In this document: in pieces, positions 4,300 through 31,144 of the stretch
Numbering within the stretch: the stretch's first letter is position 1
Layout: every line of letters begins with the position of its first letter
Assembly (NCBI RefSeq): GCF_014779715.1
Contig: NZ_JACXYU010000001.1
Location: 496,001 to 560,000, forward strand
Reading direction: 5' to 3'
Source of the DNA: Streptomyces chumphonensis
GTDB lineage: Bacteria; Actinomycetota; Actinomycetes; Streptomycetales; Streptomycetaceae
DNA length: 64,000 nucleotides
Position numbers and translations under genes: made by a program
The notes under the pieces: generated by a model
Databases searched by the model: none
The model's input: the letters and a program-made list of their open reading frames with translations, nothing else
What the model was told of the DNA's origin: nothing

Positions 4300-4309
4300 G
4301 GAGACACGT

Positions 4310-5113: not shown

Positions 5114-5178
5114 GCCCGCCCACCGTCCGCCGCCGCCCCCCACGGCCCTGTATCCGCTCGCACCGCAAGGACACCGCC

Positions 5179-6783: not shown

Positions 6784-7733
6784 GCGGAGTCCGCTCCTGG
6801 GTGGTACGGCGGCTGCTGCTCGGCCTCGGCCAGACGGCGGCCGTCGTCCTGCTCGTCTTCGCCCTGACCGAGGCGCTGCCGGGGGACGCGGCCGTGGTGC
6901 TCGCCGGTGACCAGCCCGACCCGGACCGGATCGCCGCCATCCGCGAGGCCATGGAGCTGGACCGTCCCGCGCACGAACGTCTCCTGGACTGGGCGGCCGG
7001 GCTGCTGCACGGCGACTTCGGCACCTCACTCGTCTCCGACCGGCCCGTCTCCACGTATCTCGCGGACGGTTTCGGACCGACGCTGCTCCTCGCCGGCCTG
7101 ACGGTGGCACTGCTGGTGCCGACCGGGGTGGGCCTCGGGGTGCTGGCCGCCCGCCACGAGGGCCGGTTCGTCGACCGGCTGGTCAGCTCGACGACGCTGG
7201 GCGTCTACGCGGTGCCGGAGTTCGCCTTCGGCGTGCTGCTGATCACCGTGTTCGCGCTGCGCCTCGGCTGGCTGCCGCCGACCGCCGTGGGCTACGGCAC
7301 GGACCTCCTGGGCCATCCGGCGGCGCTCGTGCTGCCCGTCGTCGTGCTGCTGTCGCGGCCGGTGTGCTCCCTGGCCCGCCTGGTGCGCGCCGGCATGATC
7401 GACGCGCTCGACTCCCCGTACGTCGCGCACGCCCGGCGGTACGGCCTGTCGGGCGTGCGCCTGCGGTACGCCCACGCGCTGCCCAACGCGGTGGCGCCCG
7501 CCGCCCAGCAACTGGCCCGCACGATCGACTGGCTGCTGGGCGGCGTCATCGTCGTGGAGGCGCTGTTCGTGATCCCCGGGCTCGGCACCGTACTGATCAA
7601 CGCCGTGGCCGAGCGTGACGTGCCCGTGGTGCAGGGCCTCGCGGTGGTCTTCGGACTCTCCACCGTCGTCCTCAACCTGGGGGCCGACCTGGTCACCCAC
7701 CGCCTCACCCCTCGGGCGGGGGTGGCCGCATGA
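6780..7733 (+). CDS. ABC transporter permease (DppB/NikB type)
   Basis: A 317-residue inner-membrane permease with about six transmembrane segments and the conserved DppB/OppB features: GDFGTSLVSDRPV after the first periplasmic loop, and the EAA-like coupling region around YVAHARRYGLSG followed by HALPNAVAP. The GTG start overlaps the substrate-binding protein stop by four bases, and its own stop overlaps the next ATG. It forms the membrane channel with the next gene product. Confidence 0.9.
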   Translation: MSGVRSWVVRRLLLGLGQTAAVVLLVFALTEALPGDAAVVLAGDQPDPDRIAAIREAMELDRPAHERLLDWAAGLLHGDFGTSLVSDRPVSTYLADGFGPTLLLAGLTVALLVPTGVGLGVLAARHEGRFVDRLVSSTTLGVYAVPEFAFGVLLITVFALRLGWLPPTAVGYGTDLLGHPAALVLPVVVLLSRPVCSLARLVRAGMIDALDSPYVAHARRYGLSGVRLRYAHALPNAVAPAAQQLARTIDWLLGGVIVVEALFVIPGLGTVLINAVAERDVPVVQGLAVVFGLSTVVLNLGADLVTHRLTPRAGVAA

Positions 7734-8515
7734 GGTCCCGCGCCGCACTCGGCGTCCTGGTCATGGGCGTGCCGCTCGCGCTGGCCCTGCTGGGGCCGCT
7801 CTTCGCGGGGGAGCCGGGCCCGCGGGCCGCGTCGTTCACGCTCGGGAACGGGCACTGGCTCGGCACCGACTTCACCGGCCGCGACGTGGGCCGCGAGATC
7901 CTGCTCGGCGGCCGGTCGGTGGTGCTCGTCGCCCTCGCCGCGACGCTGCTCGCCTACGTGGTGGCGCTGCCACTCGGCCTGATCGGCGCGCTGACCCACC
8001 GGACCTGGCTGGAGGAGCTGCTGATGCGGCCGCTGGACGTCCTGCTGGCCGTTCCCTCGCTGCTGATGATCCTGCTCGTGGCCTCGGTCCTCACCCCGGA
8101 CGCCACCGGCCTCGCGCTGCTGGTGGCCCTGGTCAACATCCCGGACGCCGCGCGGATCGTCCGGGCGGCGGCCGCGGAGGCGGCGTCGCGCCCGGCGGTC
8201 GAGGCGCTCCGCATGCAGGGCGAGACCTGGTGGCGGATGGCCGTCGGCTACGTCGGCAGGTCGGTCGCCCGGACGCTCGCCGCCGACGCGGGCGTCCGGC
8301 TGACCGGGGTGCTGTACCTCGTGGCGACGGCGGCGTTCCTGGGCGTCGGCGTCGCCCCCGACGCCTCCGACTGGGCCGTGATGGTGGACCGCAACCGCAC
8401 GGGACTGTTCGTGCAGCCCTGGGCCGTCGTGGTGCCCGCACTGCTGATCGTCGCATTGACCATGGGGGGCAACCTGCTCTTCGACGCCCTGCTGGAGAAG
8501 AGGAGGCGGGTGTGA
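7730..8515 (+). CDS. ABC transporter permease (DppC/NikC type)
   Basis: A 261-residue permease with about six transmembrane helices. It contains the HWLGTDFTGRDVGREILLGGR segment, whose GTDxxGRD core is diagnostic of DppC/OppC/NikC subunits. The EAA loop is the EALRMQGETWWRMA region. It pairs with the preceding DppB-type subunit. Start and stop overlap both neighbours (ATGA and GTGA). Confidence 0.9.
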   Translation: MRSRAALGVLVMGVPLALALLGPLFAGEPGPRAASFTLGNGHWLGTDFTGRDVGREILLGGRSVVLVALAATLLAYVVALPLGLIGALTHRTWLEELLMRPLDVLLAVPSLLMILLVASVLTPDATGLALLVALVNIPDAARIVRAAAAEAASRPAVEALRMQGETWWRMAVGYVGRSVARTLAADAGVRLTGVLYLVATAAFLGVGVAPDASDWAVMVDRNRTGLFVQPWAVVVPALLIVALTMGGNLLFDALLEKRRRV

Positions 8516-10038
8516 CCGTCGTCGCCGAGATCAGGAAGCTGCGCGTCGAGACGGGCGGTCGGGCGATCGTCGACGGAGTGGACGTGCGACTGGTGGCCGG
8601 GCGGATCACCGCACTCGTCGGTGCGTCCGGCAGCGGCAAGACCACCACGGGGCTCGCGCTGCTCGGCGCGTACCCGGCCGGCGCGCGGGTGTCCGGTGAG
8701 GTGCGCACGGTGGACGGGCTCGTCGGATACGTGCCCCAGCACCCGGGTGCCGTCCTCAACCCCGCCCGCCGCGCCGGCGCCCTCCTGCACGACATCGCCC
8801 GGGTCCAGACCCGGGCGATGCCCCGGGCCGAGCGCCGGGCCGCCGCCCGGGAACGGGTGCTGCACGCGCTCTCCCTCGCCCAGCTCCCCGACGGCGAGAC
8901 TCTGCTGCGGCGCTACCCGCACCAGCTCTCCGGCGGGCAGCAGCAGCGGCTCGTGCTGGCCCAGGCGCTGCTGGTCGGCGCCCGGGTCGTCGTCGCGGAC
9001 GAACCGACCACCGGACAGGACGCGCTGACCAAGCGCCGTGTCGTCGACCAGCTGGCGGAGGTCGCCCGGCAGGGCATCGCGGTGCTGCTGCTCAGCCACG
9101 ACCTCGACGTCGTACAGGCCCTCGCCGACGAGGTCCTCGTCATGCGGGACGGCAACGTCGTGGAGTCGGGCCCGGCGGACCGCCTGTGGCACGCGCCACG
9201 GCACCCGTGGACCCGCGAGCTCCTCGCCACGCCCCCGGCGAGCGCCGGCCCGGCGCCGGCCGAAGGGGCCGGCCCCGTACTCCAGGTCCGCGACCTCACC
9301 GCCCGGCACGGCGGCACCGTCGTGCTCCGTGCCGACGTCCTCAGCCTCGGCGCGGGCGGGTGCCTGGCCGTCGTCGGCCGTTCCGGCAGCGGCAAGACGA
9401 CCCTCGCCCGCTGCCTGGCCGGGCTCCACCGTGACCACGACGGTGACGTCCTGCTGGACGGAGTGCCCCTGCCGCGCAGCCTCCGCGCCCGCAGCCGCGG
9501 CCAACTGGCCTCCGTCCAGTACGTCTTCCAGGACGCGCGGGCCGCGTTCGACGAGCACCGACCGGTGGTGGACCAGGTGGCCCGCACGGCGGTGCGACTG
9601 CGCGGCGTGGCCCCGGACCGGGCGCGGGCCGAGGCGCTGGACGCCCTCGCCGGTCTCGGCCTGACCGGGGAACCGGTCCGGCGCGGACCGGACGAGCTCT
9701 CCGGCGGCGAGCTCCAGCGGGCGGCCCTGGCGCGAGCGGTGCTGGCCCGGCCGCAGGTCCTCGTCTGCGACGAGATCACCTCCGGTCTCGACACGGTGAC
9801 CCGGCGTTCCCTCCTGGACGTGCTCGCCGCGCTGCGGCGCACGCGTCCGGACATGGGTCTGATCCTCATCACCCACGACCTGGACGTGGCGGCCCTGGCG
9901 ACGCACGTCGTCGTCCTGGACGGCGGCGAGCTCGTGGAGCAGGGGCCGACCCGCGAGGTACTGTCCAGGCCCCGGCACCCGTTCACGGTCTCGCTCACGG
10001 AGACCTCGGCGCTGCTGACGGCTCGGGCACGGGTCTGA
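8512..10038 (+). CDS. Double-domain ABC ATPase (DppD-DppF fusion type)
   Basis: A 508-residue protein with two complete nucleotide-binding domains in one chain. Walker A motifs are GASGSGKTT (about 37-45) and GRSGSGKTT (about 288-296). Signature motifs are LSGGQQQR (about 138) and LSGGELQR (about 396). Walker B regions are VVVADEPTTG and VLVCDEITSG. In most family members these are two polypeptides, so the importer here needs only four genes. The operon apparently ends with this gene; 80 bases without a recognisable gene separate it from the next regulator. Confidence 0.92.
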   Translation: MTVVAEIRKLRVETGGRAIVDGVDVRLVAGRITALVGASGSGKTTTGLALLGAYPAGARVSGEVRTVDGLVGYVPQHPGAVLNPARRAGALLHDIARVQTRAMPRAERRAAARERVLHALSLAQLPDGETLLRRYPHQLSGGQQQRLVLAQALLVGARVVVADEPTTGQDALTKRRVVDQLAEVARQGIAVLLLSHDLDVVQALADEVLVMRDGNVVESGPADRLWHAPRHPWTRELLATPPASAGPAPAEGAGPVLQVRDLTARHGGTVVLRADVLSLGAGGCLAVVGRSGSGKTTLARCLAGLHRDHDGDVLLDGVPLPRSLRARSRGQLASVQYVFQDARAAFDEHRPVVDQVARTAVRLRGVAPDRARAEALDALAGLGLTGEPVRRGPDELSGGELQRAALARAVLARPQVLVCDEITSGLDTVTRRSLLDVLAALRRTRPDMGLILITHDLDVAALATHVVVLDGGELVEQGPTREVLSRPRHPFTVSLTETSALLTARARV

Positions 10039-10106
10039 GGACGGGGTCGGAACGACTCCGCGCCAGCGGTCGGGAACGCCCTCTGGGGTGGGGGACGGGG
10101 CCCGAT

Positions 10107-10112
10107 TATCGT
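10107..10112 (+). promoter_or_regulatory. -10 element (TATCGT) for a probable leaderless transcript
   Basis: TATCGT fits the Streptomyces TANNNT -10 consensus and ends six bases before the ATG of the LysR gene. No ribosome-binding sequence lies between. This implies transcription starting at or next to the A of the start codon. Confidence 0.5.
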
Positions 10113-10118
10113 TCGGGC

Positions 10119-11024
10119 ATGTTCGAATCGCGGCACATCAAGACGTTCCACGAGGTCGTGCGGACCGGGTCCTACACGGCCGCGGCCCGGGCGCTCGGCT
10201 ATACCCAGCCCGCGATCACCCAGCAGATCAAGGCGCTCGAACGGGCCGTGGGCGCGCCGCTGTTCGTCCGGGTGGGGCGGCGCATGCGGCTGACCGAGGC
10301 CGGGGAGACGCTGGCGCGGCACGCGGGCGTCATCCTGGACACGATGGCCGTCGCCCACCAGCAGATGCGGGCGCTGCGGGGGCTGCGGACCGGGCGGGTG
10401 CGGGTGTGCGCGTTCCCCAGCGCGGGGGCGACGCTCGTCCCGGAGGCGCTGGCGCGGCTGGCGGCGGGCCGCGCCGGCGTCCGCGTCGAGCTCCAGGAGA
10501 GCGAACCGCCGGACTCCCTGCACCGCGTGGTGCGGGGCGCGTGCGACATCGCGCTGGCCTTCACCTATCCCGGGCTGCACGAGGAGGTGCCGCCGGAGCT
10601 GGTGGAGATCCCGCTGCTGGAGGACCAGCTGACGGTCCTGCTGCCCGCCGGGCACGCCATGGCCCGCCGCCGGGCGGTGAAGCTCGCCGAGCTGGCGGAC
10701 GAGCGCTGGATCGCGGGCTGCCTGCGCTGCCGGACCAACTTCCTCCACGAGTGCGCCGAGTTGGGCTTCGCCCCCGACATCGTCTTCACCACGGACGACA
10801 ACCTGGTGGTGCAGAGCCTGGTCGCCGAGGGGCTGGGCATCGCGATGATGCCGGGGCTCGTCCTGTCGTTCCTGGTGCACCGCAAGGTCGTCGGGCGGGC
10901 ACTGGACCCGGCGTCGCGACGCCAGATATCCGCTTATGTGCTGCGGGAGCACCTGGAGGTGCCGGCCACGGCGCTCGTGCTTGACGAGCTGAGATCCGTG
11001 GCGGCGAACCGGGTCGGCTGCTGA
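10119..11024 (+). CDS. LysR-family transcriptional regulator (YeiE/CysB-like context)
   Basis: A 301-residue LysR-type regulator with an N-terminal winged helix-turn-helix (SYTAAARALGYTQPAITQQIKALE, residues about 17-40) and a C-terminal inducer-binding domain with typical hinge and VAEGLGIAMMPG segments. It is followed on the same strand by a cysteine dioxygenase and a YeiH-family transporter. In Escherichia coli the LysR protein YeiE sits with yeiH, so control of this sulfur module is more likely than control of the upstream ABC operon. The start shows no ribosome site but an appropriately placed TATCGT. Confidence 0.85.
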   Translation: MFESRHIKTFHEVVRTGSYTAAARALGYTQPAITQQIKALERAVGAPLFVRVGRRMRLTEAGETLARHAGVILDTMAVAHQQMRALRGLRTGRVRVCAFPSAGATLVPEALARLAAGRAGVRVELQESEPPDSLHRVVRGACDIALAFTYPGLHEEVPPELVEIPLLEDQLTVLLPAGHAMARRRAVKLAELADERWIAGCLRCRTNFLHECAELGFAPDIVFTTDDNLVVQSLVAEGLGIAMMPGLVLSFLVHRKVVGRALDPASRRQISAYVLREHLEVPATALVLDELRSVAANRVGC

Positions 11025-11110
11025 CCCCCACCCGTTCCATAAGCACATGTTGGGGGAAGGCGAAAGAACCCTCGTTGGACGTGATGGCAGGGCGGCGGGA
11101 CGCTTTCGCC

Positions 11111-11686
11111 ATGACCCCCTCAACCGACTCCACCGCCTTCGGAACCCGCACCACCGACCGCCTCACCGGTCTGGTCGACGAGATCCGCGACGTCGTCGGC
11201 CGGGGCCTGCCGCCCGACATCACCGCCTACCTCGTGGGCGAGAGGCTGGGCCCCCACCTGGGCACAGCGGACCTGCTCACCCCGCAGCAGCGGGAGGGCG
11301 ACCCCGAGCACTACCGCCAGCACCTCCTGCACGCCGAACCGGGCGGCGGGTTCTCCGTCGTGGCGCTGGTGTGGCTCCCCGGGCAGCGCACGTCGGTGCA
11401 CGACCACGTCTCGTGGTGCGTGACCGGTGTCCACGAGGGCGAGGAGCGGGAACGCCGCTACCGGCTCGTGCCCGCGACGACCAACGGCGGCCGGGCCCGC
11501 CTCGTCGCCACCGAGGAGGTGGTGAACCCGCGCGGCGCCGTGTGCGGCTTCGCCCCTCCCGGCGACATCCACCGCGTGTGGAACGGGTGCGCGGACACCG
11601 CGATATCCCTGCACGTCTACGGCGCCGACATCTCCCGGCTGGGCACCAGCGTCCGGCGCGTCTACGACGTCCCCGCCGACCGCTGA
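11111..11686 (+). CDS. Cysteine dioxygenase-type cupin
   Basis: A 191-residue cupin of the cysteine dioxygenase group. Iron ligands are visible as the His97/His99 pair in TSVHDHVSW and a later histidine near 154 in PPGDIHRVWNG. The enzyme class oxidises cysteine to cysteine sulfinate, which breaks down to pyruvate and sulfite. The in-frame ATG 36 bases upstream gives an extra MDVMAGRRDAFA that does not look conserved, so the internal ATG was chosen; neither start has a strong ribosome site. The stop TGA shares its final A with the ATG of the transporter gene that follows, indicating coupled expression with a presumed sulfite/sulfate exporter. Confidence 0.82.
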   Translation: MTPSTDSTAFGTRTTDRLTGLVDEIRDVVGRGLPPDITAYLVGERLGPHLGTADLLTPQQREGDPEHYRQHLLHAEPGGGFSVVALVWLPGQRTSVHDHVSWCVTGVHEGEERERRYRLVPATTNGGRARLVATEEVVNPRGAVCGFAPPGDIHRVWNGCADTAISLHVYGADISRLGTSVRRVYDVPADR

Positions 11687-12801
11687 TGGCGGCACCGGCC
11701 GCCCGCGCCGCCCGCGCCGACGCGCCGCGCGGCGTCCGGTGGGCCGTTCGGCGCGGCGCGGGGCACGGCGCGGGACGAGGTGTGCGGGGCGCGGGGCGCG
11801 GACCGGAGCGCGCCGCCGGGCCGCTGCCGGGGCTCGCCCTCGTCGCGGCGGGCGTCTGCGCCGCGTTCGGCGTGCACCTGCTGGTGCCGACCGTGCCCGT
11901 GCTCACCGCCGCGATGGTCCTGGGCGTGGCCGTCGCCCACCTGCCGCGCGCGGGCCGCTTCGCGCGCGGCCGGGGACGGCCCGGGCTCTCGCTGGCCGGG
12001 CGGCGCCTCATGCGGCTCGGCATCGTCCTCCTGGGCCTCGAACTGAGCCTCGGCCAGGTGCTGGACCTGGGCTGGGGGACGGCCACGATGGTGGTCGGCG
12101 TGGTCGTCGCGACCTTCTTCGGCACCCTGTGGCTGGGGCGCAGGCTCGGGCTGACCGGCGATCAGCCGCTGCTCGTCGCGACCGGCTACGCGATCTGCGG
12201 CGCGTCCGCGATCGGGGCCGTGAGCGAGGTGCGGCGCAGCGACGAGCGCGATGTCGCGGCCTCCGTCGCGCTGGTGACGCTGTGCGGCACGCTGGCCATC
12301 GCCGTCCTGCCGCTGCTGCACCAGCCGCTGGGCCTGAGCGACGCGGAGTTCGGTCGCTGGGTGGGGGCCGGCGTCCACGACGTGGGGCAGGTCGTGGCCA
12401 CGGCGCAGACCGCCGGGTCGGCGGCCCTGGGCGAGGCCGTGCTGGTGAAACTCCTGCGCGTGGTCCTGCTCGCCCCGCTGGTCGCCGTGCTGGCCGGCCT
12501 GGTGGCGCGCCGCCGCACCGGCGGTGCGGCGGGGGTGCGGCGCCCGCCGCCGGTGCCGCTGTTCGTCGCCGGTTTCCTCGCCGCCGCCGCCCTGCGCACC
12601 ACCGGCGTCCTGCCGGGGGGTCTCCTGGAGGGCGCCGCCACGGTCCGCGAGGTCCTGCTCGCCGCCGCGCTGTTCGGCCTCGGCAGCGGCGTCTTCCTGC
12701 CCGCGCTGACCGGGACGGGACGTCGCATGGCCGCCTTGGGGGCGGCCGCCTGGGTCGTCGTCGCGGGGCTGTCCTACGGGGGCGTGCTGCTCACGGCGTG
12801 A
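11686..12801 (+). CDS. YeiH-family (UPF0324) putative sulfite/sulfate exporter
   Basis: A 371-residue polytopic membrane protein with about ten hydrophobic segments. GYAICGASAIGAVSEV and VGAGVHDVGQVVATAQTAG are strong YeiH/UPF0324 signatures. The first 45 residues are Ala/Arg/Gly-rich and unusual; a later start is possible, but this ATG overlaps the dioxygenase stop. Family members are annotated as putative sulfate exporters and linked to sulfite tolerance. Coupling to cysteine dioxygenase gives a plausible route for disposing of oxidised sulfur. Confidence 0.85.
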   Translation: MAAPAARAARADAPRGVRWAVRRGAGHGAGRGVRGAGRGPERAAGPLPGLALVAAGVCAAFGVHLLVPTVPVLTAAMVLGVAVAHLPRAGRFARGRGRPGLSLAGRRLMRLGIVLLGLELSLGQVLDLGWGTATMVVGVVVATFFGTLWLGRRLGLTGDQPLLVATGYAICGASAIGAVSEVRRSDERDVAASVALVTLCGTLAIAVLPLLHQPLGLSDAEFGRWVGAGVHDVGQVVATAQTAGSAALGEAVLVKLLRVVLLAPLVAVLAGLVARRRTGGAAGVRRPPPVPLFVAGFLAAAALRTTGVLPGGLLEGAATVREVLLAAALFGLGSGVFLPALTGTGRRMAALGAAAWVVVAGLSYGGVLLTA

Positions 12802-12813
12802 CGCGGCCGGGGC

Positions 12814-13179
12814 TCACGCCCGGCGGCGCAGGGCCTCCCGCACGGCGTCGTCGGTGCGGGCCACGAGCGCCGTGCCGTCGTCGGCCGTGATGATCGGCCG
12901 CTGGATCAGGCGCGGGTGGGCGGCGAGCGCCGCCGTCCACTTCGGCCGGGTCGCCGCGTCGCGCGGCCAGTCCCGCAGCCCCAGCTCCCGCGCGACCGGC
13001 TCCTGGACGCGGGTGACGTCCCACGGTTCCAGGCCGAGGCGGGCCAGGACGGCCTCCAGCTCGGCCTCGCTCGGCGGGTCCTCCAGGTACCTGCGGACCG
13101 TGTACCCGGCACCGGCCGCGTCGAGCCGGGTGAGGGCGCTACGGCACTTCGAGCAGGCGGGGTTGATCCAGATCTCCAT
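12814..13179 (-). CDS. ArsC/Spx-type thioredoxin-fold protein
   Basis: A 121-residue arsenate reductase-like protein. The chosen ATG places the redox motif at the N terminus as MEIWINPACSKCRSAL, with a CxxC pair at residues 9 and 12. The C-terminal QRPIITADDGTALVARTD is the conserved RPIxxxxxxxxxGRP-like region, with the final arginine-proline altered. Longer upstream starts add no recognisable sequence. It is convergent with the YeiH gene, 12 bases apart. It may be a glutaredoxin-dependent reductase or a YffB-like protein; arsenate specificity cannot be claimed. Confidence 0.8.
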   Translation of the reverse strand: MEIWINPACSKCRSALTRLDAAGAGYTVRRYLEDPPSEAELEAVLARLGLEPWDVTRVQEPVARELGLRDWPRDAATRPKWTAALAAHPRLIQRPIITADDGTALVARTDDAVREALRRRA

Positions 13180-13226
13180 GCGGGCCCACTCTACGGCGGG
13201 GGCAGCGGGGTTCGTACGCCCCGGTG

Positions 13227-13240
13227 TTACCTGCTGGTAA
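13227..13240. promoter_or_regulatory. Inverted repeat, possible operator
   Basis: TTACC-TGCT-GGTAA is a perfect 5+4+5 palindrome about 48 bases upstream of the ArsC-like gene and about 100 bases upstream of the divergent SPW gene. The position suits an operator for either gene; the cognate regulator is unknown. Confidence 0.4.
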
Positions 13241-13341
13241 GTCACGATTTCGCCGGAAAAGTGTCGTTCTCGTCTTGTCAGGCGCACAATGAAAGCGCGG
13301 CCAAGGCTTGCGTATCCAAGCTCTGAAGGGGGCGAGTCGAA

Positions 13342-13785
13342 ATGGCCTCAGTCTCACACCGGCGGGGTGACCTGGCCGGTCACCCCGACGCCACCGAAAT
13401 GCGGGAACGCTACGATCGCGTGCTCGGCGGCAGGGACGTGGCGCTGGTGGACGGGCCGGTCTTCCTGCTCGGTCTGTACTGCGCCGTGTCCCCCTGGGTC
13501 GTGCACTTCTCCGGCAACCAGGCGTCGCTGACGACCCACAACCTCATCATCGGTATCGCCCTCGGGCTGATGGCGCTCGGCTTCACCATGGCGCCGGACC
13601 GGATGTACGGCCTGAGCTGGGCGATCTGCGCGGTGGGCGCATGGCTCATCATCTCACCGTGGGTGGTGGGAACCAGCCCGGACGCGGGCGTCGTCCTGAA
13701 CCAGGTCATCGTCGGCGGTGTCGCCTTCCTCCTGGGTCTGGCCTGCGCCGCGACGGCGATGCGCGTCAAGCGGGCGAACGGCTGA
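13342..13785 (+). CDS. SPW-repeat membrane protein
   Basis: A 147-residue protein with four hydrophobic segments and two SPW repeats, YCAVSPWVVHFSGN (about 50) and ISPWVVGTSPD (about 105), diagnostic of the SPW-repeat family. Function in the family is unknown; the protein sits in the cytoplasmic membrane. The start ATG is preceded by an AAGGGGGCGAG ribosome site. It appears to be transcribed alone. Confidence 0.85.
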   Translation: MASVSHRRGDLAGHPDATEMRERYDRVLGGRDVALVDGPVFLLGLYCAVSPWVVHFSGNQASLTTHNLIIGIALGLMALGFTMAPDRMYGLSWAICAVGAWLIISPWVVGTSPDAGVVLNQVIVGGVAFLLGLACAATAMRVKRANG

Positions 13786-13969
13786 CCGGAGCCGTCCCGC
13801 ACGGGGCGGCGGCCCGGTCCACGCGTGAACGTCCACCCATCCCCCTGTGGCAGACGGGAGGTTTCCCACCGCGGCGGCGCCGCTCCCCCTCTCCAGCCCG
13901 ATGCGGAGCGGCGCCGCCGCCTGTCCGGACCGGCCCGGGCGGGGAGTGCGCCCCCGTAGGCTGGCCCGC

Positions 13970-14692
13970 ATGGCTCTGCGGACCACTGCGGCGGTGGGGG
14001 CGGCGCTCGGCGTCCTCGGCGCGGCCCAATGGCTGGGCGTCCGGGCGCCCCGGCGCGCCCGGCCCGGGGTCGCCCTCACGGCGACGGCCGCGTTGCTCGG
14101 CGTCGCCCGCGCGGCGGGGCTCGGCCGCGACGACCTCGGTCTCGCACCGTCACGGCTGCGGGCGGGCGCGCGGCTCGGGGGCGCGCCCGCCGCCCTCGTG
14201 GGCGTCGGGTACGCCGCCGGTGCGGCGCTGCCGGCGACGCGCGCGCTCTTCGCGGACCGCAGGGCCGCCCGGACCCTCCCCGGCGCGCTGCGCCAAGCCC
14301 TCGTCGACGTTCCGCTCGGCACCGTCCTGCTGGAGGAAACCGGCTTCCGGGCCGTGCTGCCCGCCCTGCTGCGCGAGCGGTGCGGCGCGGCGGGCGCGGA
14401 CGCCGTCGCAGCCGCCCTGTTCGGGCTGTGGCACGTCGTGCCGTCCGGCGCGCTGGTCGAGGCGAACCCGGCCCTGGCCCGCGCCTCCGGGGGTGGCGCG
14501 CGTCCAGGCCGGGCCGCCACGGCGGCGGGCAACGTCGTGGTCACCGCCGCCGGGGGCGCGCTGTTCGGGCTGCTGCGGCGGCGCAGCGGCAGCCTGCTGG
14601 CCCCCGCCCTGACGCACACCGCGCTCAACGCGTTCGGGTACCTCGCGGCGTACGCGGTGCGACGCGCGGGGGCTCCGTCCCGTCCCCGGTGA
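13970..14692 (+). CDS. CPBP-family intramembrane metalloprotease
   Basis: A 240-residue membrane protein of the CAAX protease and bacteriocin-processing (CPBP/Abi) family. Motif 1 is LLEETGFRAVL (EExxR type), motif 2 is AALFGLWHVV (FxxxH type), and the third conserved segment is ALTHTALNAFG, supplying zinc-binding histidine and asparagine. Start choice: TAGGCT lies seven bases before this ATG and no ribosome site is evident, which suggests a leaderless message; an upstream in-frame start was rejected. The 3' end overlaps the convergent LysR gene by 68 bases. The substrate is unknown. Confidence 0.8.
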   Translation: MALRTTAAVGAALGVLGAAQWLGVRAPRRARPGVALTATAALLGVARAAGLGRDDLGLAPSRLRAGARLGGAPAALVGVGYAAGAALPATRALFADRRAARTLPGALRQALVDVPLGTVLLEETGFRAVLPALLRERCGAAGADAVAAALFGLWHVVPSGALVEANPALARASGGGARPGRAATAAGNVVVTAAGGALFGLLRRRSGSLLAPALTHTALNAFGYLAAYAVRRAGAPSRPR

Positions 14693-15566
14693 GGTGGTCG
14701 GTGAGGATGCGGCGCAGCTCCCGGGCCGCCCGGGGCGGGGAGACGTCCGAGCGGTGGGCCACCGAGATCGTGCGGTGCAGTCCGGGCGGGGCCAGCGGCG
14801 TCGTCCGCAGCCCCGAGCGGTCGGCCACCATGCGCGGCACGACGGCGAGCCCGAGGCCGGCCCGGACGAAGCCGAGCACGGCGTCCATCTCGCCGCCCTC
14901 CACGCTGAACCGGGGCTCGAAACCGGCCGCGCGGCACGCGGAGAGCGTCAGCTCGCGCAGGTCGTAGCCGTGCCGGAACATCACCAGCGGCCGGTCCCGC
15001 AACGCGGCGACGTGGAGCCGCTTCCCGGCCGTGGGCGCGGGACCGGTCGGGGCCGACACGACGACCAACTCCTCCCGCAGCAGCTCGGCCGTGACGAGCG
15101 CGGGCGCCTGGCCGGGCAGGGGGGTGATGACGAGCGCCAGGTCCAGCTCCCCGGCGGCCAGGACGGCGACCAGATCGCGCGAGCCGCCCTCGTGCACGAG
15201 GAGTTCCACGCCCGGGTAGCGGTCGTGGAAGACGCGCAGCACGTCGGGCACGACGCTGGCGCACAGGCTGGGCGGGGCGCCGAGCCGGACCCGGCCGCGG
15301 CGCAGCAGGGCGACCTCCTGCACCTCCCGGCGTGCGGTCTCGGTGTCGGCGAGGATGCGGCGGGCCAGGGGCAGCAGCGCCTCCCCCGCGTCGGTGAGGC
15401 TCACGTGCCCGCGCGCCCGGTGGAACAGCTCCGTGCCCAGCTCGCGCTCCAGTGAGCGGATCTGCTGGGACAGCGACGGCTGGGCGACGTGCTCGCGCTG
15501 GGCGGCGCGGGTGAAGTGCCGGGTGTCGGCCACGGCGGCGAAGTAGCGGAGCTGCTGGAGCTGCAT
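14625..15566 (-). CDS. LysR-family regulator, probable repressor/activator of sdhCAB
   Basis: A 313-residue LysR regulator with an N-terminal helix-turn-helix (HFTRAAQREHVAQPSLSQQIRSLE, about 17-40) and a C-terminal co-inducer domain. It is transcribed divergently from sdhC with 95 bases between the starts, and that gap contains a palindrome of LysR type. The C-terminal 25 residues are Pro/Arg/Thr-rich and overlap the convergent protease gene, so they may be a late extension. The inducer is unknown; a C4-dicarboxylate would fit the neighbouring operon. Confidence 0.88.
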   Translation of the reverse strand: MQLQQLRYFAAVADTRHFTRAAQREHVAQPSLSQQIRSLERELGTELFHRARGHVSLTDAGEALLPLARRILADTETARREVQEVALLRRGRVRLGAPPSLCASVVPDVLRVFHDRYPGVELLVHEGGSRDLVAVLAAGELDLALVITPLPGQAPALVTAELLREELVVVSAPTGPAPTAGKRLHVAALRDRPLVMFRHGYDLRELTLSACRAAGFEPRFSVEGGEMDAVLGFVRAGLGLAVVPRMVADRSGLRTTPLAPPGLHRTISVAHRSDVSPPRAARELRRILTDHLTGDGTEPPRVAPRTPRGTRTR

Positions 15567-15587
15567 GGGCCCATGCTAGATGCGCTC

Positions 15588-15602
15588 ATAGGAGGTGCCT
15601 AT
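15588..15602. promoter_or_regulatory. LysR-type operator between regulator and sdhC
   Basis: ATAGG-AGGTG-CCTAT is a perfect 5+5+5 inverted repeat with the T-N11-A layout bound by LysR regulators. It lies 22 bases upstream of the regulator start and 60 bases upstream of sdhC, suited to autoregulation together with control of the divergent operon. Confidence 0.6.
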
Positions 15603-15648
15603 CGTCATGAGCCGTTTCATGTCTTGGACGGATCACGGTCGGCGCTTC

Positions 15649-15654
15649 TAGCGT
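15649..15654 (+). promoter_or_regulatory. -10 element (TAGCGT) of sdhC, leaderless-type
   Basis: TAGCGT fits TANNNT and ends seven bases before the sdhC ATG, with no ribosome site between. A TTGGAC 19 bases further upstream could serve as the -35 element. Confidence 0.5.
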
Positions 15655-15661
15655 CATCGGC

Positions 15662-16366
15662 ATGGCACCGGCGACGAGGACCGACACCCGTCCCTCCACC
15701 GTGACGCTGATCTGGCGCACGACCGTGGGCAAGAAGGCCGTCATGGCCGTGACCGGCGTGGCGATGCTGCTGTATCTGGTCGTGCACATGCTGGGCAACC
15801 TCAAGATCTTCTTCGGCCCCGAGGACTTCAACGGGTACGCGCACTGGCTGCGCACCCTCGGCGAACCCTTCCTGCGCTACGAGTGGTTCCTGTGGTTCGC
15901 CCGCGCGGGCCTGCTCGCGTCCGTCGTGCTGCACGGGCTGGCGGCGTACCAGCTCACCCGGCTCGACCGGGCCGCCCGCCCGGTCGCCTACGTGCACCGG
16001 GACGCCCGCCGCGACTACGCCACCCGCACGATGCGCTGGGGCGGCGTGATCCTCGCGCTGTTCGTCGTCTGGCACATCCTCGACCTCACGACGGGCACCG
16101 TGAACCCGCGCGGCGAGGCCGGCAACCCGTACGGGAACGTCGTCGCCACCTTCAGCACCTGGTACGGCAACACCATCTACTGCGTGGCCATGCTCGCCGT
16201 CGGGCTGCACGTGCGGCACGGCCTGCTCAGCGCCGGACGCACGCTCGGCGCCGTCGGCCGCCGCTCCCAGCACGCCGTGCGCGTCGCCTCCGAGACGCTC
16301 GCCCTCACCCTGACCGCCGGCTTCCTCGCCGTCCCCCTCGCCGTCATGACCGGAGTGGTGAACTGA
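15662..16366 (+). CDS. sdhC: Succinate dehydrogenase cytochrome b subunit
   Basis: A 234-residue single-polypeptide, five-helix cytochrome b subunit of the type B (Bacillus/Wolinella-like) succinate dehydrogenase/fumarate reductase. Conserved features are [23 protein letters not shown] near the N terminus, with a heme-ligand histidine, and further histidines in [22 protein letters not shown] and GLHVRHGLL, enough for two b hemes. It anchors the catalytic SdhAB pair and passes electrons to menaquinone. sdhA starts two bases downstream. Confidence 0.9.
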
Positions 16367-16367
16367 G

Positions 16368-18337
<1,970 letters not shown>

Positions 18338-20464: not shown

Positions 20465-21463
20465 TCACCCCCGGTCGGCCGGGAGGGACTCCGGCAGGCC
20501 GAAGGTGGCGAACAGCCGCGTGTCGAAGAAGGCGGCGACGTGCGAGACGCCGCCCTGCGCGAGCGTGAGGACCTGGAGGTGGAAGGGCTGGAAGGTGCCG
20601 TCCTCCGCCCGCATGTAGAGGCCGAAGGCGGGCTGGCCGTTGGCCCCCGCCGGGATCAGCCGCATCTCGCCGGGGCCGCCCGGGCAGCGGGTTCCGATGA
20701 GCTCGCCGACGGCGGCCGGCCCCTGGTACCAGCCGGTGAACGGCGGCATCTCCCAGACGACCTCCTGGCTGAGGAGCCGCACGATCTCCGCGACGTCCTT
20801 CACCTCGAAGGCGGCGACGTAGCGCTCCAGCAGTTCGCGGCGCTCCCCGTGGCCGGGCTCGGTCACCGTGTCCTCGGCGGGCGCGATCTGCTTGAGCTGG
20901 GCGCGGGCACGCTGCAGGGCGCTGTTCACCGACGCCGTCGAGGTCTCCAGCAGCTCGGCGACCTCGGCGGCGCGCCACTTGAGGACGTCCCGCAGCAGCA
21001 GGACGGCCCGCTGCCGGGCGGGCAGGTGCTGCAGGGCGGCCACGAACGCCAGCCGGACGCTCTCGCGGGAGGTGACGACGGCCGCCGGGTCGGCGCCGTC
21101 GGCACCGACCAGGGCGTCGGGCACGGGTTCCAGCCACGGCACCTCGCCCTGCTCGACCAGTTCGTCCGAGGGGTCGGAACTGGGCGCGCCGAGGCCGGTG
21201 GGCAGCGGGCGCCTGCTGCGGCTCTCCAGGGCGTCCAGGCAGGTATTGGTGGCGATCCGGTGCAGCCAGGTGCGCATCGAGGAGCGGCCCTCGAAGCGGT
21301 CGTACGCGCGCCAGGCCCGCAGGTAGGTCTCCTGCACGAGGTCCTCGGCGTCGTGCACGGAGCCCAGCATGCGGTAGCAGTGGGCCAGCAGCTCCCGCCG
21401 GAAGGGGTCGGCCAGACGGGGGAAGTCCTCGCTGACCCGGGTCTTCGTCGGGTTCTCCGCCAT
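20465..21463 (-). CDS. ECF-type RNA polymerase sigma factor with C-terminal SnoaL-like domain
   Basis: A 332-residue group 4 sigma factor. Region 2 contains YRMLGSVHDAEDLVQETYLRAWRAYDRFEGRSSMRTWLHRIATN; region 4 contains ALQHLPARQRAVLLLRDVLKWRAAEVAELLETSTASVNSALQRAR. After about residue 195 a SnoaL/NTF2-like domain follows (ERYVAAFEVKDVAEIVRLLSQ), typical of TIGR02960/SigG-like factors, where the extra domain modulates activity without a classical membrane anti-sigma. The ATG chosen begins MAENPTKT, after a GAGGGCGGGACG ribosome site; 72 extra upstream codons in the same frame were rejected. The regulon is unknown. Confidence 0.85.
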   Translation of the reverse strand: MAENPTKTRVSEDFPRLADPFRRELLAHCYRMLGSVHDAEDLVQETYLRAWRAYDRFEGRSSMRTWLHRIATNTCLDALESRSRRPLPTGLGAPSSDPSDELVEQGEVPWLEPVPDALVGADGADPAAVVTSRESVRLAFVAALQHLPARQRAVLLLRDVLKWRAAEVAELLETSTASVNSALQRARAQLKQIAPAEDTVTEPGHGERRELLERYVAAFEVKDVAEIVRLLSQEVVWEMPPFTGWYQGPAAVGELIGTRCPGGPGEMRLIPAGANGQPAFGLYMRAEDGTFQPFHLQVLTLAQGGVSHVAAFFDTRLFATFGLPESLPADRG

Positions 21464-21750: not shown

Positions 21751-22629
21751 ATGAGCACTCTGGAAGGCACGACCTCCGACACCCTTGAGGGCATCGTCGA
21801 CACCGCGCGGTACCCGCTGTCGGACCTCGCGAGCGCCGCGGGCCGGGAGGTCCTGGCCCGCGCGCGGCGGGACCTGGCCCGCGACGGCTGCACCGTCCTG
21901 CCGGACTTCGTCCGCCCCGACCTGCGCGCAGTGCTGCGGCGTGAGGGCGCCGCCATGGCCCCTCGGGCCTACGTCGACGTCGAGACCGTCAACGTCTACA
22001 ACGTCGACGTCGGCGCCGAACTGCCCGAGGGGCACCCCGGCCGCCGCACGTTCCTGCGGGGCAACGCCTTCGTCGCCCGGGACCGCGTGCCCGGCGACGC
22101 CCTCATCAGCCGCCTGTACTCCCACCCCGCCTTCCAGGGGTTCGTGGCCGCCTGCTTCGGGCTGCCCGCCCTGCACGAGCTGGCCGACCCGCTGTCCGGA
22201 CTCGTCCTCAACGTCGTCGCGCCCGGCATGGAGCACCCCTGGCACTTCGACACCAACGAGTTCACCGTCAGCATGCTGACCCAGGAGCCGCGGGCGGGCG
22301 GCGTCTTCGAGTACTGCCCGGGCATCCGGTCCGCCGAGGACGAGTGCTTCGAGGACGTGCGCGCCGTCCTCGACGGCCGGGGCGAGCGGCTCGTCCGCCG
22401 ACTCCCGCTGCACCCGGGGGACCTCCAGCTCTTCCAGGGGCGCTACGCGCTCCACCGGGTCAGTCCCGTGGGCGGCGACACCGCCCGGCACTCGGCCATC
22501 TTCGCCTACAGCGAGCGACCCGGGGTGATCGGCAGCGTCGCCCGCACCCGGCAGCTCTTCGGTCGCGTCCTGCCCGCACACCTGGCGGCCGAGGGCCGCG
22601 CCGTCCGGGGCGACCGGCTGCTCGACTGA
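21751..22629 (+). CDS. Non-heme Fe(II)/2-oxoglutarate-type oxygenase
   Basis: A 292-residue cupin-fold oxygenase. The iron triad is visible as HPWHFDTNEF (HxD) and a distal histidine in GRYALHRVSPV, with an arginine in ARHSAIFAYSE placed to bind 2-oxoglutarate. It resembles the group that contains amino-acid halogenases of the BesD/HalD type, but the aspartate that halogenases replace by Gly/Ala is present, so hydroxylation is expected. Start: AGAGGACCGC precedes this ATG; 84 upstream in-frame codons overlap the regulatory palindrome and were rejected. It heads an operon with a methyltransferase and a carnitine/choline acyltransferase. The substrate is unknown. Confidence 0.75.
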   Translation: MSTLEGTTSDTLEGIVDTARYPLSDLASAAGREVLARARRDLARDGCTVLPDFVRPDLRAVLRREGAAMAPRAYVDVETVNVYNVDVGAELPEGHPGRRTFLRGNAFVARDRVPGDALISRLYSHPAFQGFVAACFGLPALHELADPLSGLVLNVVAPGMEHPWHFDTNEFTVSMLTQEPRAGGVFEYCPGIRSAEDECFEDVRAVLDGRGERLVRRLPLHPGDLQLFQGRYALHRVSPVGGDTARHSAIFAYSERPGVIGSVARTRQLFGRVLPAHLAAEGRAVRGDRLLD

Positions 22630-22658
22630 CACCCACCGCACCCTCGGAGGCCGTCCCT

Positions 22659-23483
22659 GTGCGTTTCGACGCGACCGGCAAAGTCTCGCTCGACCACATC
22701 TACACCCAGCCCGACCCGCGCCCCTACTTCACCGCACTCCGCCCGCTCGGCTACACCGTCCCGCAGCACGCCAAGCCCTACTTCGCGAAGCTGGTCCGGG
22801 AGTACCGCGACACCCACGGCGTCGCGGTGCCGCAGGTGCTGGACGTCGGCTGCTCGTACGGCATCAACGCCGCGCTGCTGAAGCAGGACACGACGATGGA
22901 GGCGCTGTACGAGCACTACGCCCCCGGTGGCGAGGACCGGCGCACCCGCGCCGACCTGCTGGCCGAGGACCGCGCGCGGGCGCGCTCCCGGCACCCGGCC
23001 CCGGTCCGGGTCGTCGGGCTGGACACCTCCGCCGAGGCCCTGTCCTACGCGGTGCGGGCCGGTCACCTCGACGACGCCGTCCACGCCGACCTGGAGCGGG
23101 AGGAGCCCACGGCCGCGCAGCGGGAGCTCCTCGCGGGCACCGACCTGGTCGTCTCCACCGGCTGCCTCGGCTACGTCACCGAGCGCACCCTGACGCGCGT
23201 CGTCCGCGCGCAGGGCGGGCGCCGCCCGTGGATGGCCCACTTCGTGCTGCGGATGTTCCCCTTCGACCCCATCGCGCGGGCCCTGGCCGCGCTCGGCTAC
23301 CGCACCACCCGCGTCGAGGGCCTCTTCCCGCAGCGGCGCTTCGCCTCCGCGCAGGAGCAGGAGCGCGTGCTGGCCGGCATGGCGGCCGCCGGCGTGGCGC
23401 CCGGCGACCTCGAAGCGGACGGCTGGTTCGCCGCACAGCTTTTCCTCTCCCGTCCCGACGAACCGAAACGAGAGCGTCCTTGA
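22659..23483 (+). CDS. SAM-dependent methyltransferase
   Basis: A 274-residue class I methyltransferase-like protein. VLDVGCSYGINAALL is motif I, with the third motif glycine replaced by serine-tyrosine; GLDTSAEALSYAV carries the ribose-binding acid; DLVVSTGCLGYV is the motif II region. The GTG start has CTCGGAGG nine bases upstream. The stop overlaps the TTG start of the acyltransferase. Methylation of an amine to a betaine would fit the neighbours, but this is inference. Confidence 0.75.
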   Translation: MRFDATGKVSLDHIYTQPDPRPYFTALRPLGYTVPQHAKPYFAKLVREYRDTHGVAVPQVLDVGCSYGINAALLKQDTTMEALYEHYAPGGEDRRTRADLLAEDRARARSRHPAPVRVVGLDTSAEALSYAVRAGHLDDAVHADLEREEPTAAQRELLAGTDLVVSTGCLGYVTERTLTRVVRAQGGRRPWMAHFVLRMFPFDPIARALAALGYRTTRVEGLFPQRRFASAQEQERVLAGMAAAGVAPGDLEADGWFAAQLFLSRPDEPKRERP

Positions 23484-25252
23484 AGAGCATCTTCGCCCGC
23501 GAGGCCGAACTGCCCCGCGTGCCCCTGCCCACCCTGGAGGAGAGCTGCGAGCGGTTCCTCACCTGGTGCGCGCCGCTGCTGACCGACGAGGGACAGGCCG
23601 CCACCGAGGCGGAGGTGGCGGCCTTCCGGGGGCCGGGCGGCCCCGGCCCCGAGCTGCACGCCGCCCTGAGCGCGTACGACGCGAGCGAGGGCGTGCACAG
23701 CTGGCTCGACACGTTCTGGCCCTACCGCTACCTCGGCCGCCGGGACCGGATCGCGCTGAACGCCAACTTCTTCTTCCTGTTCGAGGACGCCGAAGCGGCC
23801 CAGGTGCCGCGCGCCGCCGGTCTTGTCGCCGCCGCCCTGGACCACAAGCGGCGGCTCGACGAGGACCTCGTGCCGCCCGCGACGCAGCGCGGCGTGCCGC
23901 AGTCCATGGTCCAGAGCGCCTACCTGTTCTCCACCACCCGCATCCCCGGCGCCGAGCAGGACACCGTCCGCGCCCCGTGGAGCGAGGCGTGGCCGGGACC
24001 GTCCGACGCCCGCCACATCGTCGTGCTGCACCGGGGCCATCTGGTGCGCATGGACGTCCTCGGCCCCGACGGCGTCCCGCACGACCTGGCGGACCTCGAA
24101 GCGGGCCTGCGGCACGTGATGCGGACGGCCACCGCCCCCGAGCCCTTCCCCGTCGGCCATCTCACCACGCTGGCGCGCGCCGAGTGGGCGAGCGCGCGGA
24201 CCTCCCTCCAGGCCCTCGACCCGGGCAACGCCGAGGCACTGGAGGACATCGAGACCGCCCTGTTCTGCCTCTGCCTGGAGGACGTCGCCCCCGACGGGAC
24301 CAAAGCCGCCTGCGACGAGCTGCTGCACGGCGACCGGGGCAACCGCTGGTTCGACAAGGCCGTGTCCCTGGTGGTGTTCGCCGACGGCCGCGCGGGCATC
24401 AACGTCGAGCACTGCGAGCTGGACGGCACGACCGTCCTCGGCTTCGTCGACGCCCTGCTGGAGAGCCCCGCCGAGGAGCGGGCCCGCGCGTCGGGGGCCC
24501 GCTCACAGGGCCTGCCCGCCGTGCGTCCGCTCGACTTCACCCTGGACGCGGCGCTGCGCGCCCGCGTCACCGAGGCCGCTGCCTCCTTCGCCGAGCACGG
24601 CGCCGCCACGGCCACCGCCACCGTCGCGTTCGACGACTTCGGCAGCGCCGCCGCCAAGGCCCTCGGCGTCTCCCCCGACGCCTTCGTCCAGTGCGCCTAC
24701 CAGCTCGCGCACCAGCGCGCGAAGGGGCACCTGGGCGCGACGTACGAGTCGATCGCGACCCGCCAGTACCGGTACGGGCGCACCGAGGCGATGCGCGTCG
24801 TCACCCCTCAGATGCAGGCGTTCGTGAGCGCGATGGAGGACCCGGGGGCCGACGCGGAGACCCGTCGCGCCGCCTTCCACGCGGCCGCCGCGGCCCACGT
24901 GACCCGGGCCCGGCAGTGCCAGACCGGCCAGGCCCCCGAGCAGCACCTGTGGGAGCTGGAGCTGATCCAGCGCCGCCGGGGCGGCCCCCAGCCCGCCCTG
25001 TTCCGCTCCCCCGGCTGGCTGACGATGCGCGCCGACCACCTGAGCACCAGCTCCGCCCCCTCCACCCACATCCAGTACTTCGGCTTCGGTTCGACGAGCC
25101 CGCAGTGCATCGGCGTGGCGTACGTGCTGCTCCCCGACCGTTTCCACGTCTACCTGAGCACGCCCCGGCCGGTCGCCGCCGCGATGGAGACCTTCGCCGA
25201 CGCCCTGCGGGAGGCCGTCGCCCAGCTCCGGGCGCTGCTCACCCCGTCCTGA
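23480..25252 (+). CDS. Choline/carnitine O-acyltransferase family protein
   Basis: A 590-residue member of the carnitine/choline acyltransferase family, otherwise mainly eukaryotic. The early PxLPxPxLExTxxxYL-like motif appears as LPRVPLPTLEESCERFL. The catalytic histidine lies in GINVEHCELDGTT, the counterpart of NxEHSxxDG. QYFGFGSTSPQCIGVAYVLLPD corresponds to the C-terminal S-T-S/GYG substrate region. Such enzymes move acyl groups between CoA and a hydroxylated quaternary amine. The TTG start overlaps the methyltransferase stop (TTGA). With a hydroxylase and a methyltransferase, an acylated carnitine-like product is a reasonable hypothesis. Confidence 0.88.
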   Translation: MKSIFAREAELPRVPLPTLEESCERFLTWCAPLLTDEGQAATEAEVAAFRGPGGPGPELHAALSAYDASEGVHSWLDTFWPYRYLGRRDRIALNANFFFLFEDAEAAQVPRAAGLVAAALDHKRRLDEDLVPPATQRGVPQSMVQSAYLFSTTRIPGAEQDTVRAPWSEAWPGPSDARHIVVLHRGHLVRMDVLGPDGVPHDLADLEAGLRHVMRTATAPEPFPVGHLTTLARAEWASARTSLQALDPGNAEALEDIETALFCLCLEDVAPDGTKAACDELLHGDRGNRWFDKAVSLVVFADGRAGINVEHCELDGTTVLGFVDALLESPAEERARASGARSQGLPAVRPLDFTLDAALRARVTEAAASFAEHGAATATATVAFDDFGSAAAKALGVSPDAFVQCAYQLAHQRAKGHLGATYESIATRQYRYGRTEAMRVVTPQMQAFVSAMEDPGADAETRRAAFHAAAAAHVTRARQCQTGQAPEQHLWELELIQRRRGGPQPALFRSPGWLTMRADHLSTSSAPSTHIQYFGFGSTSPQCIGVAYVLLPDRFHVYLSTPRPVAAAMETFADALREAVAQLRALLTPS

Positions 25253-30295: not shown

Positions 30296-31144
30296 ATGGC
30301 ACACGCGCACGTGGTCGAAGCGCTCAGCGCGGAGGATTTTCTGCGGAACCACCTGGAGCCCGGCCGGCCGGTCGTGGTGAGGAGAGCTCTGAACGACTGG
30401 AGGGTTCCCCCTCCCTGGGACCTACAGGATCTCAAGGAGCGCTTCCGCGACGCCGAGGTCTCACTTTTCGACACGCTCTTCACCCTCGAGGAAGTGGCCA
30501 CCTTCGGCGACTACGTCGACGAGCACACCGGTCAGGGGGACGCCGGGATACCGCCCTATCTGCGCTGGTTCACCCAGCAGAGCCATGATCAGATGATCGT
30601 CGCCGATGACGCGTTCGCGGAACTCGCGGACGACTGGTCGATGCCGTCCTGGCTGCCCGAGGGGGACTATCTGCTCCCGCCGGCCGCCGGGCCCGTGAAC
30701 GCCTCCCGTGACCGCTTCCCAGCGCGGGGCATGTTCGTCTGCGGCCAGGGCGGGCGGACGCGCCTGCACGTCGACCCCTGGGCCAGCGACGCGTGCCTGT
30801 GTCAGGTGACCGGCAGGAAGCGCTTCATCATGTACGGCCCGGAGACCGGCGAGTTCCTGACGGACTCGGAGGGCGGCACCGTGGATCTCGACCACCCCGA
30901 CGAGAGCAGGTTCCCCCGCTGGAAACAGGCGGTGCCCACGCTCGACGAGGTCCTCTCGCCGGGAGACGCCGTCTTCATCCCCCAGGGCTGGTATCACACG
31001 GCCATCGCGCTCGATGACAGCGTCTCCCTCACCTGGAACTTCACCCATCGGGTGCACGAGGAGCGGTTCGAGACCTTTCTCCGGTCCGGCGGCGGTGAGG
31101 ACCCCGTCATCCGCTTTTTCCTTGAGGACGTTGACCAGGGGTAG
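30296..31144 (+). CDS. JmjC-type cupin (Fe/2-oxoglutarate hydroxylase-like)
   Basis: A 282-residue cupin-like protein of the JmjC/FIH hydroxylase group. VVVRRALNDW near residue 30 is the typical PVVIRG-like opening. GRTRLHVDPWASDACLCQVTG gives the HxD iron ligands and GWYHTAIALDDSVSLTWNF the distal histidine, with the double-stranded beta-helix. Family members hydroxylate protein side chains or modify small molecules with 2-oxoglutarate. The ATG is preceded by GGACGGAG. It is flanked by broken genes in an accessory stretch and its substrate cannot be guessed. Confidence 0.8.
   Translation: MAHAHVVEALSAEDFLRNHLEPGRPVVVRRALNDWRVPPPWDLQDLKERFRDAEVSLFDTLFTLEEVATFGDYVDEHTGQGDAGIPPYLRWFTQQSHDQMIVADDAFAELADDWSMPSWLPEGDYLLPPAAGPVNASRDRFPARGMFVCGQGGRTRLHVDPWASDACLCQVTGRKRFIMYGPETGEFLTDSEGGTVDLDHPDESRFPRWKQAVPTLDEVLSPGDAVFIPQGWYHTAIALDDSVSLTWNFTHRVHEERFETFLRSGGGEDPVIRFFLEDVDQG

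Follow-up and report, generated by a model that had tools for sequence, protein, structure and literature searches.

Introduction

Eukaryotic carnitine synthesis, which includes trimethyllysine and gamma-butyrobetaine hydroxylases, follows an outline of methylation, 2-oxoglutarate (2OG)-dependent hydroxylation and O-acylation. Here we describe an operon in Streptomyces chumphonensis whose enzymes would follow the same outline. It lies in a 64,000-nucleotide stretch of DNA (contig NZ_JACXYU010000001.1, positions 496,001 to 560,000 of the forward strand), referred to below as the window, and encodes a predicted hydroxylase (OX), a methyltransferase that uses S-adenosylmethionine (SAM), here called MT, and a choline/carnitine-type acyltransferase (CAT). 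Across actinobacterial genomes the close relatives of CAT are tied to OX and carry an invariant change in the acceptor site. We propose, at close to an even chance, that the cassette is self-contained and makes an amino-acid betaine that is hydroxylated, N-methylated and O-esterified with a short acyl chain.

Results

OX, MT and CAT form an operon in which MT and CAT are coupled

All three genes are on the + strand and follow one another head to tail. A sequence-only reading of the window had described them as an operon with CAT translationally coupled to MT, and the coordinates, the strand and the TTGA coupling were all confirmed in the sequence. Positions are those of the window.

21751..22629, + strand: OX, predicted Fe(II)/2OG hydroxylase of the HalD/BesD type; ATG start, 292 aa; Pfam HalD model over cut-off and fold of the structural model
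22659..23483, + strand: MT, class I SAM-dependent methyltransferase; GTG start, 274 aa; fold of the AlphaFold model and membership of the operon clade of 70 sequences
23480..25252, + strand: CAT, choline/carnitine-type O-acyltransferase; TTG start, 590 aa; PF00755 and phmmer matches
23480..23483, + strand: TTGA, shared by the stop of MT and the start of CAT; read from the sequence, start position matched by homologues

The TTG start of CAT is supported by its homologues at loci L033 and L071, which begin at approximately the same residue in the alignment (G and L numbers denote genomes and loci). CAT is the single PF00755 match in the window genome. A search of OX, MT and CAT against NCBIfam gave no name for any of the three.

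OX and CAT occur together across actinobacterial genomes

A match to CAT was found in 34 of the 295 genomes in our genus sample, 33 of them close and one, in G069, a distant relative with 33% identity. OX was present in 33 of the 295, and these were exactly the genomes with a close CAT (Fisher p 1.7e-44, uncorrected for kinship). When the gene context was read, OX adjoined CAT, or an MT beside CAT, at all 32 other close-CAT loci of the genus. Chance neighbourhood of the three genes is ruled out by this co-occurrence. The sequence-only reading had staked its proposal on the three genes being found together elsewhere, and the genome-context survey found them together in many genomes.

The acyltransferase family is rare among the bacteria sampled, in keeping with that reading's remark that carnitine acyltransferases are mostly eukaryotic. 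PF00755 matches were present in 5 of 396 genomes sampled from the window's phylum (a weak fragment in one case), in 2 of 249 genomes of the phylum of a Paraburkholderia genome, in 19 of 200 genomes of the order of G343 and in none of 14 control genomes; a search for CAT on plasmids gave no match. OX was sought in 21 genomes and found in 17, the negatives being G069, G430, G708 and G737. Among the 19 PF00755-bearing genomes of the order of G343, 17 carry OX, which is absent from G708 and G737. Both G343 and G522 have OX-MT-CAT and fall among Nocardia in the MT tree, while G430 has a lone CAT of 29% identity. At L232 (8382-10971) in G708, a CAT-MT pair with a Gln-type acceptor site sits in a genome without OX; it may represent the cassette in an older or a reduced state.

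A scan of a genome collection, queried with a diverse OX alignment led by a Caballeronia protein, returned at least 594 stretches, of which at least 588 were confirmed and the best 80 kept; the scan counts describe these 80 loci nearest to the query. They comprise 48 actinobacterial and 32 Pseudomonadota loci. CAT was present in all 48 actinobacterial loci and MT in 45, in Nocardia, Amycolatopsis, Actinomadura, Spirillospora, Pseudonocardia, Actinokineospora, Gandjariella, Streptomyces and metagenome-assembled genomes of Pseudonocardiales and Mycobacteriaceae. Below, the 83 actinobacterial OX-CAT loci are the window, the 32 genus loci, G343, G522 and the 48 scan loci; L057, with its distant CAT and an MT of 42% identity, was excluded. 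Adding the 32 Pseudomonadota loci gives 115 OX sequences.

No larger conserved cluster was found around the cassette. The 25 commonest neighbour families have at most 14 members each, and none of the families listed extends beyond one genus and its neighbours, save for a general ABC ATPase (6 loci, two genera). By eye, hisG, hisE and metH-like genes flank the Nocardia loci and a glnA-like gene flanks the Streptomyces loci. As far as the listed families show, the genes flanking the actinobacterial cassettes differ from clade to clade.

CAT is a PF00755 acyltransferase with a changed acceptor site

CAT matched PF00755 over the whole profile (positions 1-574 of 574; 528 bits against a cut-off of 22.3, E 4e-158), and phmmer matched it to CPT2, CROT, CrAT and ChAT chains with E values down to 8.7e-70. 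The catalytic H311 and D315 of the HxxxD motif and S522, T523 and S524 of the STS motif are kept in 83 of 83 CATs, bearing out the earlier description of a carnitine/choline acyltransferase with its histidine motif.

24410..24424, + strand: catalytic HxxxD of CAT (H311, D315), kept in 83/83 CATs
24941..24943, + strand: Q488 of CAT; Gln in 83/83; column of Arg in CrAT, CROT and CPT2 and of Asn in ChAT in PDB alignments
25079..25087, + strand: F534 and F536 of CAT; columns of Met and Phe in CrAT and of Cys and Tyr in ChAT; kept in 82/83 (F534) and 83/83 (F536)

At the ACYLTRANSFERASE site of CAT, PDB alignments set Q488 opposite the Arg of CrAT and CROT and the Asn of ChAT; CPT2 has Arg at this column and Gly at that of F534. 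F536 faces the Phe of CrAT and the Tyr of ChAT, and F534 faces Met and Cys, respectively. Y422 and T435 occupy the columns of the CrAT Tyr and Thr. Q488, F536, Y422 and T435 are invariant in the 83 CATs, and F534 is replaced once, by Trp. Instead of the ChAT hallmarks, Asn at the acceptor site and Val at the neighbouring Thr column, CAT has Gln488 and Thr435. Gln also occupies the 488 column in the CATs of G708, G737, G789 and G827, and Arg does so in four bacterial CATs outside the group (L057, L073, L234 and L235).

The Arg of the CrAT carboxylate site is R518. Since the Arg of the carnitine enzymes is Gln in all 83 CATs, the acceptor is probably not carnitine. Judged from these residues, it is probably a quaternary-ammonium alcohol that lacks carnitine's carboxylate or presents it differently. 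In CrAT, the Met limits acyl length; the acyl group transferred by CAT, which has Phe at this column, is probably short. We tentatively take the ChAT Tyr at the F536 column to be Tyr552. One report places Tyr552 of ChAT against the pyridinium of a ligand, beside the catalytic His324 (PMC13255071).

CAT might instead be a carnitine or choline acetyltransferase that buffers acyl-CoA, with two unrelated neighbours. The full-length PF00755 match and the retention of the CrAT Tyr and Thr columns in every CAT would fit such a role. The presence of Gln at the carnitine-site Arg column in the whole group, when four bacterial CATs outside it keep this residue, and the near-perfect linkage of CAT to OX speak against it, and we consider it very improbable.

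Two loci with distant CATs have their own surroundings. At L057 in G069 (63-16715), the 33% CAT and the 42% MT relative lie approximately 5 kb apart in a genome without OX; by eye, the surroundings resemble a nonribosomal peptide synthetase (NRPS) cluster with an aminotransferase, a flavin-dependent halogenase-like protein and an adenylation protein. At L234 in G998, a Pseudomonadota-side genome, a 27% CAT relative is accompanied by two methyltransferase-like genes and a large NRPS-like gene (1879-11961).

OX has the HalD fold and an intact iron site

OX matched the Pfam HalD model PF23169 with 49.4 bits (cut-off 26), and TauD (PF02668) only below cut-off, with 13 bits against 27 (E 0.099). 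Its structural model (predicted local distance difference test score, pLDDT, 87.8) was nearest to HalB, HalA, BesD, HalD and a lysine hydroxylase (Z 20.4-21.3), followed by one further member of the group at 18.1 and by the next family at 16.5. This is the fold of enzymes acting on free amino acids, which we count in favour of the proposed pathway.

22243..22251, + strand: HxD iron ligands of OX, H165 and D167; invariant in 115/115 OX sequences
22453-22455, + strand: distal H235 of OX; invariant in 115/115
22486-22488, + strand: R246 of OX; invariant in 115/115
22234..22236, + strand: H162 of OX; His in the actinobacterial clade (83/83), Gln in the Pseudomonadota clade (32/32)

The HxD motif that the sequence-only reading had called intact is identical in all 115 sequences, together with H235 and R246. 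Because HxD stands in place of the HxG seen in HalB, hydroxylation rather than halogenation is expected, and OX should be a hydroxylase; a halogenase reading was rejected on the presence of Asp167 in every sequence. Position 162, which adjoins the iron motif, separates the two clades without exception. Term searches within PMC10187165 and PMC13244439 yielded nothing usable on the substrate residues of BesD.

The Pseudomonadota sister clade of OX lies beside betaine-type uptake genes at 20 of 32 loci

In a tree of 30 of the 115 OX sequences and six plasmid relatives, the latter with long branches, the Pseudomonadota OX clade is the sister of the actinobacterial clade. Four aligned members are 42-49% identical to the window OX. 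Neighbours were counted within the stretches read, and families were named by Pfam searches on examples. Neither CAT nor MT was found at any of the 32 Pseudomonadota loci, and PF00755 was absent from eight of eight OX-bearing Pseudomonadota genomes searched, the controls likewise giving no match. An M24 gene lies directly downstream of OX in 32 of 32 loci; its product is closest to the DddP model yet far under the cut-off (329 and 347 bits against 600). An OpuAC-type binding protein of the betaine/choline type is encoded in 19 loci and a BCCT-like transporter in four, one of which lacks OpuAC, so that betaine-type uptake genes accompany OX in 20 of the 32. More distant plasmid relatives of OX adjoin MTTB genes in Mesorhizobium and a rhodobacterium, and in Mesorhizobium also a Rieske gene. 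The presence of the betaine/choline-type binding protein at the sister loci suggests a betaine-type substrate for OX. Among the actinobacterial OX-CAT loci, a single case agrees with this: in G827, a betaine/choline-type ABC transporter (OpuAC, and a proV model match of 344.3 bits against 326.6) lies beside OX.

The same neighbourhoods could point to catabolism, with an external O-acyl or plain betaine being hydroxylated and CAT running toward acyl-CoA. Uptake genes and a hydrolase-like M24 gene next to the Pseudomonadota relatives are in keeping with this, and carnitine acyltransferases are described as reversible in PMC13255071. The actinobacterial cassette has no conserved transporter or hydrolase beside it, G827 being an exception, and a methyl-adding methyltransferase would be unexpected in a breakdown pathway. 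We judge the catabolic alternative improbable.

Some Pseudomonadota loci have further features. In Chromohalobacter (L145, 9749-17799, and L164), a second 2OG oxygenase, from a different family, and an OpuAC protein come after OX and M24, and BCCT transporters (two in L145) are encoded on the opposite strand; this looks like an undescribed betaine-use locus. On a plasmid of Pseudomonas sp. MPC6 (L125, 5897-8852), two divergent OX relatives (38% and 39%) lie beside an M24 gene.

MT is a variable but recurrent member of the cassette

MT (METHYLTRANSFERASE) was found near OX-CAT in 73 of the 83 actinobacterial loci. Only general methyltransferase Pfam models matched it, all under cut-off. A tree of 93 MTs places 70 operon MTs together in a single clade with full support (100/100). 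The other part of the tree, the sister clade, holds MTs encoded elsewhere in the genomes and those of L168 and L192, which are located after CAT; these two loci are counted among the 73. MT and CAT are fused in one uninterrupted frame in L054, L175 and L211, which are counted as having both. In L036, MT is split into two frames and was removed from the tree by the length filter.

Nine of the ten loci without a local MT have an MT relative elsewhere in the genome. In the genus sample this applies to 7 of 7 such genomes, as against 55 of 262 genomes without OX-CAT (Fisher p 2.6e-5), although the seven MTs fall in two clades and the independent events are therefore fewer than seven. The genomes of L182 and L210 also carry an MT relative elsewhere. 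Since MT is fused, replaced or present elsewhere, we argue from these sequence patterns that methylation belongs to the cassette's pathway. The surroundings of 20 MT relatives outside the operon are mixed, and in no case is OX or a close CAT next to them.

The AlphaFold model of MT (pLDDT 83.4) has class I methyltransferases as its nearest folds (best Z 13.5). This fold is general, and assigning MT specificity from it was rejected. It is compatible with methylation of a carboxylate or side chain, as would happen if the cassette acted on a free basic amino acid, with OX giving a hydroxylysine- or hydroxyornithine-like product, MT methylating its carboxylate or side chain and CAT acylating the hydroxyl. 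A CAT site lacking the carboxylate-binding Arg would suit a methyl ester, and wherever a substrate is named for the listed crystal structures of the OX fold group, it is lysine, ornithine or glycine. Against this are the betaine-type uptake genes beside the sister OX clade and the acceptors of CAT-family enzymes of known structure, which by their molecule names are quaternary ammonium alcohols. We regard this alternative as unlikely.

Other features of the window

Divergent from the operon is a gene for a sigma-70 family factor whose C-terminal part is SnoaL-like (20465-21463, - strand); it had no match beside the other 33 loci searched. A cupin_8/JmjC-type oxygenase-like protein is encoded 5 kb downstream of CAT (30296-31144, + strand) and was not found beside other loci. 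The gene at 52197-56051 (+ strand) encodes a protein of 1284 aa in which AMP-binding, carrier and thioesterase domains are combined.

Discussion

In the pathway that we propose, the target of OX would be a small free zwitterion (an amino acid or the corresponding betaine), hydroxylated at an unactivated carbon. MT would methylate this compound too, most likely at its nitrogen, so that a quaternary ammonium group is formed or completed. CAT would then acylate the new hydroxyl with a short group, probably acetyl, taken from acyl-CoA. The likely order would be SAM-dependent methylation of an amino-acid-like molecule, 2OG-dependent hydroxylation and O-acylation, giving an O-acyl hydroxy-betaine. 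Such a route would act like acetylcarnitine or acetylcholine synthesis, with an acceptor that is probably not carnitine.

Several observations weigh against this proposal. G708 has CAT and MT side by side and G737 has CAT, with no OX in either genome and, in the stretch of G737 that was read, no nearby MT. MT is missing from 10 of the 83 loci (L033, L035, L039, L045, L050, L055, L056, L182, L206 and L210), and a search of the L206 genome found none. In the fold search with MT, C-, N- and O-methyltransferases tie within approximately one Z unit. Among the commonest neighbour families, the actinobacterial cassettes have no conserved betaine gene. A peptide/nickel-type SBP_bac_5-like protein is encoded in 11 of the 32 Pseudomonadota loci, ten of them without OpuAC; where the two occur together, at a single locus, the identity is 23%. 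No betaine gene was seen beside the OX relatives of Pantoea, Klebsiella and Yersinia. The difference at position 162 means that the substrates of the two OX clades may differ. The sequence-only reading had proposed an acylated carnitine-like zwitterion; the betaine-type uptake genes beside the nearest non-actinobacterial OX relatives (20/32 loci) favour this idea, and its strict likeness to carnitine is weakened by the change from Arg to Gln in 83 of 83 CATs.

Each of the enzyme families is already known. We found no title or abstract opening on this operon or on the Gln-type CAT subfamily, in a literature search with thin coverage of subscription papers and preprints, which is weak evidence of novelty. 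Tentatively, and at somewhat less than an even chance, we suggest that three enzymes of actinobacteria make up an undescribed route to O-acyl hydroxy-betaines of a new class, in which a HalD-fold betaine hydroxylase, shared with betaine-use operons of Pseudomonadota, is joined to a carnitine-type acyltransferase with Gln in place of Arg. If true, this would be a bacterial parallel to acetylcarnitine and acetylcholine chemistry. The close PF00755 members go together with a single hydroxylase and, mostly, a single methyltransferase, and their acceptor-site change never varies. This gives the testable prediction that Streptomyces, Nocardia, Actinomadura, Amycolatopsis and their relatives have a small-molecule pathway not yet seen, and Gln488 of CAT, with His162 as against Gln in OX, offers a residue rule for annotating the subfamily.

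Compared with known systems, CAT resembles CrAT, ChAT, CROT and CPT2 in its whole-length PF00755 match, its catalytic His and Asp, its STS motif and the aromatic residue at the column of the ChAT Tyr and CrAT Phe. It differs at two columns: Gln stands against the Arg of CrAT, CROT and CPT2 and the Asn of ChAT, and Phe534 against the Met of CrAT and the Gly of CPT2. OX resembles the HalD/BesD family in its above-cut-off Pfam match and its nearest solved folds, but shares only 15-20% identity with it; in the halogenases of that family Gly replaces the Asp iron ligand, giving the HxG of HalB, whereas OX keeps Asp167 in an HxD motif. The OX-M24 operons of Burkholderiaceae, Pseudomonas and Halomonadaceae have a sister clade of the same hydroxylase, but carry M24 in 32 of 32 loci, neither CAT nor MT, and Gln at OX position 162. 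Eukaryotic carnitine synthesis, similar in outline, differs in its components: OX matches HalD, with TauD reached only below cut-off, and the acceptor site of CAT is not that of the carnitine enzymes.

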